A model generated the notes under the pieces. That model was not told the origin of the DNA. It searched no databases and saw only the letters and a list, made by a program, of their open reading frames with translations. Below, one piece after another: positions 51,596-57,495 of a stretch of DNA of 57,495 bases. Positions within the stretch are counted from its first letter, which is position 1; each line of letters begins with the position of its first letter. Where the stretch lies: assembly GCA_012267435.1 (NCBI GenBank), contig JAAXGM010000016.1:1-57495 (forward strand), in the 5' to 3' direction. The DNA is from Gemmatimonadota bacterium. Lineage in GTDB: Bacteria > Gemmatimonadota > Gemmatimonadetes > Longimicrobiales > Gaopeijiaceae. The position numbers and the translations under genes were made by a program.

Positions 51596-52843
51596 ATGAT
51601 GACGATCCTGATCGTGACCCTGATCGCCACGCTCGCCGTCTCGGGGCTCTGTTCGATTCTGGAGGCGGTACTCCTCTCCATCGACACGAGCTTCGTCGAG
51701 ATGAGGCGCGCGGAGGGACGACGCTCCGGTCGCCTTCTGCACGAGCTGAAGAGCCAAATCGATCAGCCGATCGCGGCCATCCTCACGCTGAACACCGTGG
51801 CGCACACCGCGGGTGCCGCGTTCGCCGGGTCGCTGGCCTACGAACTCTTCGGCAGCGCCTGGGTGGCCGGCTTCTCGGCCGTCTTCACCTTCGCCATCCT
51901 GGTCTTCTCCGAGATCATTCCCAAGACCGCCGGAGCCCGCTTCTGCAAGCAGCTCGCCCCGCCGTCCGCCTACGTCCTCAAGACGCTGACGTTCACCATG
52001 ACACCTTTGCTCGTGCCTCTTTCCTGGGTGCAGAGGCTGGTACAGGGATCGGGGAACGGCCCGGACATCAGCCGCGAGGAAATCGAAGTGATGGCGCGCA
52101 TGGCGTGGACCACCGGAACCCTGGCGGAGGACGAGTGGCAGGTGGTGTCCAACGTCATGCGCCTGGGCGAGGTCCCGGTGGGAGAGGTCATGACGCCGCG
52201 CACCGACATCGTGGCGATCGATGCGGGCGCCACGGTGGAAGAAGCCAAGGAGGTCATGCTTGACCACGGCCACCTGCGGCTCCCCGTGCACACCGGAACG
52301 CTCGACAGGATCGTGGGCGTGCTGGTGGCGCGCGACCTGTGGCGGGCGGACCAGAAGGGGGTGGCCGAGATCCGCGATCTGCCCCGCGCGCCGATCTTCG
52401 CCCCCGTCTCCCGGCCCGTTCAGGAACTCATTCCGGAACTCCGGGACAAGGGCGCCAAGATGGCGATCGTGCTGGATGAATTCGGCGGCACCGCGGGGCT
52501 GGCGACCTTCGAGGACCTCATCGAGGAGATCGTGGGCGAGATCCGTGACGAGCACGAGGCGCACGAGCCCGCCGAATTCCAGCGCCTCGCCGACGGCAGC
52601 GTCCGTGTCTGGGGAGGCGTCTCGGTGCGGGAGGCGAACCAGCGGCTGGAGATGGAGCTTCCCTCCGACCCGTTCGACACCGTCGGGGGATACGTGTTCG
52701 GGAGCCTGCGCCGGATTCCGCGGCCGGGCGACGAGGTGCCGGTGGATGGCGGGCGGTTGCGGATCGCGCGCATGCGCGGCCGTCGCGTGGAGTTTGTCGT
52801 ATTTTTTCCAGAGAATGTCGCATCCCGGCAGGACACGCCGTGA
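51596..52843 (+). CDS. CorC/HlyC-type membrane protein (DUF21-CBS-CorC_HlyC)
   Basis: A 415-residue membrane protein. The DUF21 (CNNM) domain in about residues 1-180 has three or four membrane helices (ILIVTLIATLAVSGLCSILEAVLLS; FAGSLAYELF; VFTFAILVFSEIIPKT). Two CBS domains follow (VGEVMTPRTDIVAIDAGAT...RLPVHTGTLDRIVGVLVARDL; VLDEFGGTAGLATFEDLIEEIVGEIRDE). A C-terminal CorC_HlyC domain ends at PVDGGRLRIARMRGRRVEFVV. Members are linked to magnesium/cobalt efflux or resistance; CBS domains often sense adenine nucleotides. Start is ATG 51596 or 51599. It is divergent from the NAD-salvage genes. Confidence 0.9.
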   Translation: MMTILIVTLIATLAVSGLCSILEAVLLSIDTSFVEMRRAEGRRSGRLLHELKSQIDQPIAAILTLNTVAHTAGAAFAGSLAYELFGSAWVAGFSAVFTFAILVFSEIIPKTAGARFCKQLAPPSAYVLKTLTFTMTPLLVPLSWVQRLVQGSGNGPDISREEIEVMARMAWTTGTLAEDEWQVVSNVMRLGEVPVGEVMTPRTDIVAIDAGATVEEAKEVMLDHGHLRLPVHTGTLDRIVGVLVARDLWRADQKGVAEIRDLPRAPIFAPVSRPVQELIPELRDKGAKMAIVLDEFGGTAGLATFEDLIEEIVGEIRDEHEAHEPAEFQRLADGSVRVWGGVSVREANQRLEMELPSDPFDTVGGYVFGSLRRIPRPGDEVPVDGGRLRIARMRGRRVEFVVFFPENVASRQDTP

Positions 52844-52868: not shown

Positions 52869-52897
52869 TTGACAGGCTCGCAAGCCGCTGATAACGT
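52869..52897 (+). promoter_or_regulatory. Sigma-70-type promoter for glnA
   Basis: TTGACA (52869-52874), exactly 17 bases, then TAACGT (52892-52897). Transcription would begin near 52904, leaving a leader of about 250 bases before glnA that contains a terminator hairpin. Confidence 0.65.
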
Positions 52898-52970
52898 CCC
52901 TCGTGCTGAAAATGGTTTACCCGCTCAGGATCGCCCCGTGAGGGTCGTCGTCCCCGGGCGGAGGTGTCTC

Positions 52971-53020
52971 CGGCCAGGACCCGGACGAAGTGTCTCCGGG
53001 AACTTGGCCGCTTTTCTTTT
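52971..53020 (+). terminator. Terminator hairpin inside the glnA leader
   Basis: CGGCCA (52971-52976) pairs with TGGCCG (53005-53010) and CCCGGA (52980-52985) with TCCGGG (52995-53000), followed by CTTTTCTTTT. It may end the upstream CorC transcript or attenuate glnA. Confidence 0.7.
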
Positions 53021-53152
53021 CGGGGGTTCGCGGCACACGCGAATCTCCCCCTCCTCTGCGTTCCCGCAGACCTTCCATCGGCCTGATTCGATTCCCGGGG
53101 CGCGCTGCGGCCCTCGTCCCGGACTCTTTTCCTACCTCAGCGGAGCGTGACC

Positions 53153-54568
53153 ATGGACCGGAACGAGTACCTGTACGCAGCGGAAGAAACTCGGGAGGAG
53201 ATGGAGGCGTACATCGACGAGATGGGCAGTCGCAACGGGCTGTCCCTCGCGACCGACGACGACGTCATGAAGTACGTGAAGGAGCATGACGTCAGCTCGG
53301 TCCGCCTCTGGTTCTCCGACATCCTGGGGTTCCTGAAATCCTTCTCGATCACCCCGAAGGAGCTGGCGGGCGCCTTCGAGGAGGGAATGGGTTTCGACGG
53401 CTCCTCCATCCAGGGCTACAAGCGGATCCAGGAAAGCGACATGGTCGCGTTCCCGGTGCCGGACACGGCTCAGGTGCTGCCCTTCCGCTCCGGCGGGGGA
53501 CGGTCGCTGCGCATGTTCGCCCAGATCCGCAACCCCGACGGGTCGGCGTACGACGGCGATCCCCGCAACATCCTGGTTCGCACCCTGGATCGACTCGAGG
53601 ATCACGGATGCACGAACATGTACGTCGGCCCGGAGGCGGAGTACTTCTACTTCAAGCACGAGCGAGGGACCGAGCTCCTCGACGACGCCGGATACTTCGA
53701 CATCAACCCGGTCGACATCGGGGACGACATCCGGGAAGTCACGGTGTGCGCGCTCGAAGCGATGGGCATCCAGATCGAGTACCACCACCATGAGGTCGGG
53801 CCGTCACAGCACGAAATCGACATCCGCTTCAAGGATGCGCTGCGGATGGCGGACAGCCTCCAGACCTACAAGTACCTGGTCAAGGAGATCGCGCGCCGCT
53901 GCGGGGCGTTCGCGACGTTCATGCCCAAGCCGCTCGCGGGACAGAACGGGAGCGGCATGCACACCCACCTGTCGCTCTTCAAGGGTAGCCAGAACGCCTT
54001 CTACGACGGCGCCGACGAGCACCATCTGAGCGCCATGGCCAAGCATTTCATCGCGGGGGTGCTCAAGCACTCGCGCGAGATGGCGCTGGTCACCAACCCG
54101 ACCCACAACTCCTACCGGCGCCTGGTGCCCGGCTACGAAGCGCCCGTCTACATCGCCTGGGCCGAGCGCAACCGGTCGGCGGCCATCCGTATCCCGATGT
54201 ACAAGCCCGGCAAGGAGGTGGCCACCCGCATCGAGCTGCGCTTCCCCGATCCCACCTGCAACCCGTACCTGACCTTCGCGGTCATGCTCGCCGCCGGCCT
54301 CGACGGCGTCGAGAACGCCCTTCCCTGCCCGGATCCGGTGACCGTGGACATCTACCACCTCACCGCGAAGTGGCGTGAGCAGATGGGCATCGACGCCTTG
54401 CCCCACAACCTGTTCGAAGCCGCGCGCGTCGGCCAGTTCAGCGACTTCCTCAAGAACGCCCTGGGCGAGGACGTGCACCGCAAGCTGATCGAGACCAAGC
54501 TGGAGGAGGCGGACGTCTTCCGCCTGCACGTCTCGCAGCTCGACCTGCGGAAGCACTTGGTGCTGTAG
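53153..54568 (+). CDS. glnA: Glutamine synthetase type I
   Basis: ATP-dependent glutamine synthesis from glutamate and ammonia; cytoplasmic dodecamer in this family. ATG 53153 follows GGAG at seven bases (GTG 53147 is an alternative); 471 residues. Conserved segments: MGFDGSSIQG, YVGPEAEYFYF, EVGPSQHEIDIRF, NGSGMHTHLSLFK, NPTHNSYRRLVPGYEAPVYIAW, and RIELRFPDPTCNPYLTFAVML. About 30 extra residues precede the usual start. DIYHLTAKW stands where adenylylated GS-I-beta enzymes have NLYDLPPEE, so adenylylation control is unlikely. A leader terminator suggests transcript-level control. Confidence 0.97.
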   Translation: MDRNEYLYAAEETREEMEAYIDEMGSRNGLSLATDDDVMKYVKEHDVSSVRLWFSDILGFLKSFSITPKELAGAFEEGMGFDGSSIQGYKRIQESDMVAFPVPDTAQVLPFRSGGGRSLRMFAQIRNPDGSAYDGDPRNILVRTLDRLEDHGCTNMYVGPEAEYFYFKHERGTELLDDAGYFDINPVDIGDDIREVTVCALEAMGIQIEYHHHEVGPSQHEIDIRFKDALRMADSLQTYKYLVKEIARRCGAFATFMPKPLAGQNGSGMHTHLSLFKGSQNAFYDGADEHHLSAMAKHFIAGVLKHSREMALVTNPTHNSYRRLVPGYEAPVYIAWAERNRSAAIRIPMYKPGKEVATRIELRFPDPTCNPYLTFAVMLAAGLDGVENALPCPDPVTVDIYHLTAKWREQMGIDALPHNLFEAARVGQFSDFLKNALGEDVHRKLIETKLEEADVFRLHVSQLDLRKHLVL

Positions 54569-55237: not shown

Positions 55238-55261
55238 GTTCCTTCGCTGACTGGGTCGGGA

Positions 55262-55614
55262 TGGAGGCGGCGGGAGTCGAACCCGCGTCCGCGAGTGGGT
55301 CCGGCGAAGCTTCTACGTGCGTAGATCGCTGTTGCGCTTCATCGGGTGGGCGGCCAGCGACCCGCCGAACCCCCGACTAGCCGTCGAACGTCTCGCCCGC
55401 GGCGCGACGGCATCGCCGCGGACCAGCCCAACTTGTCGACGCCTCGAAGGCCTGCCTTGGGCGGGCGGACCAGGAGACGGGCTGTGAGAAAACTCAGGCA
55501 GCCAGTGCCAGTTGATTGTTGGCGGTTGTGTTGATTCCGGGTTTTTTCCGAGGCTTCCCGGACCTCGGCACGCTACCTCGCGTTCACCAAACACGTCGAA
55601 GCCGTTACGCCCCC
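55262..55614 (-). ncRNA. ssrA: tmRNA (transfer-messenger RNA)
   Basis: A 353-nt tmRNA. The ends form the tRNA-like acceptor: GGGGGCG (from 55614) pairs with CGCCTCC plus discriminator A (55262), with one G-U pair. The T arm is GCGGG-TTCGACT-CCCGC. The 5' end continues TAACGGCTTCGACG as tmRNAs do. The tag frame (55523 down to 55494) reads GCC...TGA and encodes ANNQLALAA, with the usual ALAA end recognised by Clp/FtsH proteases. CCA is not encoded. It sits between lspA and dus, all on the minus strand. Confidence 0.97.
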
Positions 55615-56693: not shown

Positions 56694-57010
56694 GGATGCA
56701 AGATATCACACTTCGGCGCGGCTCGTGCGCAAAAGCGGCCTCGGGGACCCGCCGACACGACCCGTGGGCAGCTTGCGGAACGGGAAACCGACACGGATAA
56801 TGACGCATTCGATGATGGATCCGTCGTGAAACGATGGGTGCCGGCATCCTGTCGGAGAATGCGACGATTTCGTATATGGAAGCGACAAAAACGGACATAC
56901 CCGATAGAAAGGTTCCGAGGAGCGGGGCGGAATCCGCCCGGCGCCGGCCGCGAGGCGCGCCGAGGGCGATCGCCCGACCGCGACGCAACCATATCACCAC
57001 CGGAGAAACC
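56694..57010. promoter_or_regulatory. Divergent region, dus and ammonium transporter
   Basis: About 317 bp without a gene. On the plus strand TTGCGG (56773-56778), 17 bases and GATAAT (56796-56801) form a good sigma-70-type promoter for the transporter, with a leader of about 200 bases. The leader includes a short GGGCGG-AAT-CCGCCC hairpin (56925-56939) and GC-rich self-complementary stretches. I found no sigma-54 site. Confidence 0.5.
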
Positions 57011-57495
57011 ATGCACTTTCGTCCACTCAGCACGACCACCCGCTCCCTTCGAACCCGGATCGGTCGCATCGGGGCACTCGTCGGCCTGTTCGCGGCCGGC
57101 CTCCTTCTCGCTCCCGCGCCCGCGGCCGCCTTCGCGCAGGAGTCCGTACCGGATCTGAACTACGTCCTCAACACCTTCTCGTTCCTGATCTGGGGCGCGC
57201 TGGTGATGTGGATGTGCGCCGGCTTCACCATGCTGGAATCCGGTTCCGTGCGTTCCAAGAACGCATCCATGATCTGTCTCAAGAACATCGGCATCTACGC
57301 GATCGCCGGGCTCACCTACTACTTCATCGGCTATGGCCTGATGTACGTCGACGTGAGCGGCCTGATCGGGTCCATCAGCCTCTTCTACGGCCCGTCGGCG
57401 GACGAGATCGCGCTGCTCGGAGGGGACGAAAGCGCGCTGGCCGCCGTGGTCGAAAACGGCCACGCGGTCACCTCGGACTGGTTCTTCCAGATGGT
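57011..57495 (+). CDS. amt: Ammonium transporter, N-terminal part
   Basis: Start of an Amt/MEP/Rh-family ammonium channel, cut by the window end after 161 residues. GGAG precedes ATG 57011. Residues 1-42 form a signal peptide-like segment (GALVGLFAAGLLLAPAPAAA, then FAQ), as in some bacterial Amt proteins. Then NYVLNTFSFLIWGALVMWMCAGFTMLESGSVRSKNASMICLKNIGIYAIAGLTYYFIGYGLM matches the first Amt helices, with the F-xxLE-G-R-KN pattern. It pairs in function with glnA 2.4 kb upstream. A glnK gene is not in view. Confidence 0.95.
   Translation, partial: MHFRPLSTTTRSLRTRIGRIGALVGLFAAGLLLAPAPAAAFAQESVPDLNYVLNTFSFLIWGALVMWMCAGFTMLESGSVRSKNASMICLKNIGIYAIAGLTYYFIGYGLMYVDVSGLIGSISLFYGPSADEIALLGGDESALAAVVENGHAVTSDWFFQM

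Follow-up and report, generated by a model that had tools for sequence, protein, structure and literature searches.

A conserved glnA leader in sponge-associated Gemmatimonadota resembles an RNA attenuator with its own promoter

The glnA locus and the layout of its leader

The glnA gene, encoding a glutamine synthetase of 471 amino acids, was located as an open reading frame at positions 53153 to 54568 (start approximate) of the forward strand in the window, i.e. the whole stretch of 57,495 nucleotides of Gemmatimonadota DNA analyzed here, and it is 93-94% identical within the genus and 63-73% identical in other genera. The upstream gene, corC, ends at 52843 and runs in the same direction as glnA in this genus. 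Also close to glnA are a tmRNA gene (55259-55614, reverse strand) and the beginning of a gene for an ammonium transporter (56834-57493, forward strand); the leader motif was not found before the transporter gene.

The region between corC and glnA contains a series of elements, all on the forward strand. A -35 element, TTGACA (52869-52874), is invariant in 11 of 11 genomes of the genus and is present as TTGAC, with the same spacing, before glnA in eight other genera. The -10 element TAACGT (52892-52897), which reads TATCAT or similar in other genera, matches the consensus weakly here, at three of six bases, and the spacer between both boxes measures 17 nt in every leader except L014, where it is one longer. 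The transcription start, deduced from the promoter spacing, would lie at about 52903, within a CGTGC motif (52902-52906, with GTG at 52903) that is kept in this genus (g1) and in g46, g7, g58, g14 and g48. A possible leaderless reading frame of 12 codons, GTG..TGA (VLKMVYPLRIAP), spans 52903-52941. It overlaps the small hairpin P1 (52929-52949), whose arms GAU-C-GCCC and GGGU-C-GUC enclose the loop CGUGA at 52937-52941. Further downstream, a two-part terminator-like hairpin extends from 52972 to 53009, with the lower stem GGCCAGG/CTTGGCC at 52972-52978/53003-53009 and the upper stem CCCGGA/TCCGGG at 52980-52985/52995-53000, and it is followed by a T-rich tail, GCTTTTCTTTTC (53010-53021; CTTTTCTTTT at 53011-53020). 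The coordinates of a preliminary description were correct, and the promoter and the two hairpins are backed by conservation across the genus and across genera.

The comparison within the genus was based on an alignment of its 11 genomes. Hardly any change was seen between the -35 box and the T-tract, the 11 genomes having six distinct 120-nt leaders, and the mean pairwise divergence of the leader is 2.1% versus 18.0% at the fourfold sites of glnA, i.e. about 8-fold lower. The flanks diverge by 24.3% just upstream of the -35 box and by 13.3% downstream of the leader. CTTYTCTTTT is kept in the tail of all 11 genomes and conservation ends directly after it, as expected of a transcribed unit that ends there. 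According to the alignment and the folds, the 45 nt that start directly after the T-tract (53022-53066) form a variable segment with one or two extra hairpins, which is absent from 6 of the 11 genomes. Among the genomes that keep this hairpin-rich segment, compensatory changes were observed (L002, L008, L009 and L010), with U-A to C-G double changes in L002 versus L008-L010.

A generic consensus scan for promoters and terminators called neither the promoter nor the terminator of the leader, because the -10 box matches at only three of six positions and the stem is interrupted. Moreover, the folding stability of the whole 131-nt leader did not exceed that of shuffled sequences (z 0.09). The case for the leader therefore rests on comparison, and the -10 box and the terminator are supported by conservation, not by consensus.

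Distribution of the leader and its link to glnA

Ten genera of the family share the GlnA type encoded in this window, which also occurs, at 63% identity, in another family (f9). Seven other genera of the family (g46, g58, g7, g48, g2, g15 and g16) show a similar layout upstream of glnA. Except in g15, it comprises TTGAC-N18-TATCAT or similar and a start region resembling CGTGC, followed by a first hairpin, whose loop lies some 32-37 nt away from the predicted start, and by a second hairpin with the lower stem GRCCAGG/CCUGGYC; g15 has the promoter and the terminal hairpin, and its first hairpin is different. The lower stem is nearly fixed across genera, and the upper stem and the tail vary. Good U-tracts were found in g46, g58 and g48, the T-rich tail is conserved in g1, and the tracts are poor in g2, g15 and g16. 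One g46 genome (L036) has kept the promoter and lost the terminal hairpin, none of the leader is present in g52 (L037), and no related leader was seen in f9. In the small-genome genus g14 (L017, L038 and L040) the promoter is kept and followed by a different leader, internally conserved and structured, without a U-tract terminator. In genus g7 (L013 and L035) a second, canonical terminator, GGCGCCGG..CCGGCGCC-TTTTT, lies directly behind the terminator-like hairpin and about 60 nt upstream of glnA. Four contigs (L047, L048, L050 and L054, from bins SB0675, SB0662, RHO1 and RHO2) were deposited as 'Gammaproteobacteria bacterium', a submitter name that looks wrong; their glnA is 93-94% identical to that of the genome studied here.

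The leader is linked exclusively to glnA. In the 121 genomes of the family, a covariance model built on the full leader retrieved 17 leaders at E<1e-18, all of them before glnA and one per genome, and it found nothing else convincing in 395 genomes of the phylum. The g15 leader, which had been left outside the building of the model, gave a weak match (E=0.057) among chance matches of similar score. With a model of the hairpin only, 20 glnA leaders were recovered at E<=1.2e-6, and the next matches checked were coding sequence or unrelated genes. Second copies elsewhere were also considered and rejected, since the weaker R1/R2 model matches that were inspected (L168, L169, L181-L185 and L213-L218) fall at unrelated genes and for the most part within coding sequence. 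Likewise, the start-proximal motif ATCATCGCNCGTGC occurs in the family before glnA and otherwise only in apparent coding sequence, and a general promoter signature was rejected on this ground.

The preliminary description had considered that the hairpin might be nothing but the terminator of corC. This reading draws on the position of corC, which in this genus ends shortly before the leader in the direction of glnA, but a conserved promoter separates corC from the hairpin, and the neighboring gene upstream of glnA is divergent in g46, g58 and g14. The element therefore belongs to glnA and not to the end of the upstream gene, and we regard its service to corC alone as highly improbable.

Hairpin structure and covariation

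Unlike the leader as a whole, the terminator-like hairpin is more stable than expected, folding 3.9-4.5 standard deviations below shuffled sequences in this genus (z -3.9 to -4.5) and 3.6-5.4 below them in most leaders across genera. The hairpins of L013, L035 and L032 are only about 2 standard deviations below shuffles; in the first two the stem was cut short in the calculation, and in L032 it has a mismatch.

When RNAalifold was applied to nine leaders, both P1 (its inner four pairs) and the terminal hairpin were recovered. The covariation that the preliminary description had proposed to look for among glnA leaders was found in both hairpins. P1 shows double compensatory changes, including two that distinguish L032 from L033 of one genus, and the terminator-like hairpin shows a GC to AU double change at pair 2 of the lower stem and several in the upper stem. 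The main measures, i.e. the cells paired (89.5%), the double-change cells (15) and the covariation score, were above those of 500 of 500 shuffles and of all slid controls. Six pairs had a double change, a value as high as that reached by 22 of 500 shuffles, and further pair types were not above shuffles. Because the controls leave relatedness in and the sequences tested were also those that gave the structure, covariation provides good but not overwhelming evidence for the two hairpins.

A different fate befell the proposed switch. The exact 10-nt repeat GTGTCTCCGG is indeed present at 52964-52973 and, within the terminator-like hairpin, at 52990-52999, and its first copy could form CGGAG-GUGU-CUCCG together with 52959-52963. 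The repeat had been interpreted as offering two equal partners to an upstream strand, but it is restricted to this genus and lacks covariation, its first copy is changed in L005 and L006, and its second copy is changed to GTGTCTTCGG in L008. Pairing of the 5' arm of the terminator with upstream RNA equals that of shuffles in g1, and competing hairpins built on GTGTCTCCGG find no support; the leaders in which such pairing was somewhat stronger than in most shuffles were L033, L013, L035 and L034.

Comparison with known regulators and proposed role

The known glutamine riboswitches, the glnA RNA (glutamine-I) and the Downstream-peptide or glutamine-II RNA, are known from cyanobacteria and marine metagenomes. 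The glnA leader described here resembles them as a structured RNA in front of a nitrogen gene such as glnA, but it has no aptamer-like core conserved across genera and no covariance-model match. In line with the preliminary description, which saw no consensus of the known cyanobacterial glutamine riboswitch, Rfam cmscan reported no family, including both glutamine riboswitches, either in the window at the gathering score or in ten leader loci at E<=5.

ANTAR proteins such as EutV and NasR act on paired hairpins that overlap terminators, the RNA consensus being two hairpins with AnnGnn hexaloops, and ANTAR antitermination of glnA itself is known from nitR-glnA of clostridia. With its small hairpin and subsequent terminator-like hairpin ahead of a nitrogen gene, the leader is reminiscent of this arrangement, but the P1 loop, CRUGA in the genus and CNUGA-like in several relatives, does not fit AnnGnn. 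The ANTAR domain (PF03861) was detected in none of the 11 genomes of the genus, of which G000 is 68% complete and the others 87-99%, and control by an ANTAR protein was rejected for this genus on that basis. PF03861 is found in other families of the order. In four genomes of the sister family f2 (L020, L022, L026 and L029, at G035:C49, G043:C69, G037:C33 and G039:C260, respectively), about 1.2-1.4 kb separate an ANTAR-domain gene from a glnA of a 42-45% identical type, suggesting that glnA may be subject to ANTAR antitermination in that family.

The intrinsic-terminator attenuators of amino acid genes share with the glnA leader the order of promoter, short leader, terminator-like hairpin and structural gene, but here there is no conserved peptide with regulatory codons and the antiterminator is only a candidate. 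Ribosome-controlled attenuation would require translation of a leaderless peptide of 12-15 codons with its stop in or near P1, and an in-frame GTG..TGA of 12 codons does exist in g1, g46 and g48, as does one of 15 codons in g7, with proline as the last residue except in g48. However, the frame is absent from g58, g2, g15 and g16, it contains no run of Gln codons, and most of its changes within g46 and g7 are non-synonymous. A conserved leader peptide with regulatory codons was rejected on these grounds, the frame being neither kept across genera nor under amino-acid constraint; the frame at 52903-52941 is probably non-functional as a peptide, and we find this mode of attenuation very doubtful. 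No paper joining glnA, a riboswitch and Gemmatimonadota was found in the collection searched. The lack of an Rfam match, of ANTAR proteins, of leader-peptide constraint and of any such paper makes this element an undescribed candidate cis-acting leader of a biosynthetic gene.

A conserved leader with two hairpins thus precedes glnA, to which it is exclusively linked and with which it stays independently of the gene upstream. By a slight balance, we consider it probable that this leader is an undescribed, glnA-specific attenuator with its own promoter, serving nitrogen assimilation. As in an intrinsic attenuator, a promoter and a terminator-like hairpin with a T-tract lie before the gene, as judged by conservation and folding, the T-tract being poor in g2, g15 and g16. 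According to this proposal, transcription would start near 52903 from a housekeeping-type promoter, and the first 115 nt or so would fold into P1 and the terminator-like hairpin. A share of the transcripts would probably end at the T-rich tail near 53020, and a nitrogen-related signal may allow more polymerases to read through into glnA.

Two observations fit attenuation poorly, namely the poor T-tracts of three genera and the retention of the lower stem as sequence, beyond what pairing needs, and they keep alive both a small-RNA and a protein-bound-hairpin reading. A protein partner, mutually exclusive pairing or a trans-acting small RNA could account for this. Against attenuation also stand the loss of the terminal hairpin in L036, the missing leader of g52 (L037) and an antiterminator pairing that exceeds shuffles, weakly, in L033, L013, L035 and L034 only. 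If 52903-53020 were a stand-alone small RNA acting in trans, glnA would be reached by readthrough or from elsewhere; such an RNA would account for the freezing of the full 120 nt in the genus, unpaired parts included, and for the end of conservation at the T-tract, and base pairing of its C-rich loops (GUGUCUCC) with ribosome-binding sites would be conceivable. We nevertheless judge it unlikely, since the element always lies directly before glnA in eight genera, with one copy per genome, and its sequence diverges between genera, an unusual trait in a small RNA that acts through a seed; moreover, no promoter consensus was found between 53021 and glnA, in a scan that also misses the conserved promoter. 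The near fixation of GRCCAGG/CCUGGYC beside a variable upper stem and tail, together with the three poor tails, would also suit a hairpin that binds a protein or an RNase or stabilizes the glnA mRNA and does not terminate transcription, but the good U-tracts of g46, g58 and g48, the conserved T-rich tail of g1 and the second canonical terminator of g7 make this quite improbable. As for the leader itself, it is conceivable, if rather unlikely, that it represents a novel class of RNA that senses a metabolite or a protein and is dedicated to glutamine synthetase in Gemmatimonadota, characterized by a P1 at a near-fixed distance from the 5' end and by a sequence-constrained terminator stem, and distinct from glutamine riboswitches and ANTAR RNAs.

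None of the papers found described the control of nitrogen assimilation in Gemmatimonadota, which include abundant sponge symbionts. The carriers of the leader are sponge-associated bacteria of this phylum, in which it looks like an RNA on/off control for nitrogen assimilation, and it lies outside the groups known for glutamine riboswitches. Frozen in one genus and found in eight genera, the glnA leader offers a defined RNA of about 115 nt for the search for a ligand or a protein partner. Taken together with the ANTAR genes that a sister family has beside its own glnA, it suggests that control of glnA at the RNA level may have evolved repeatedly within a single order.
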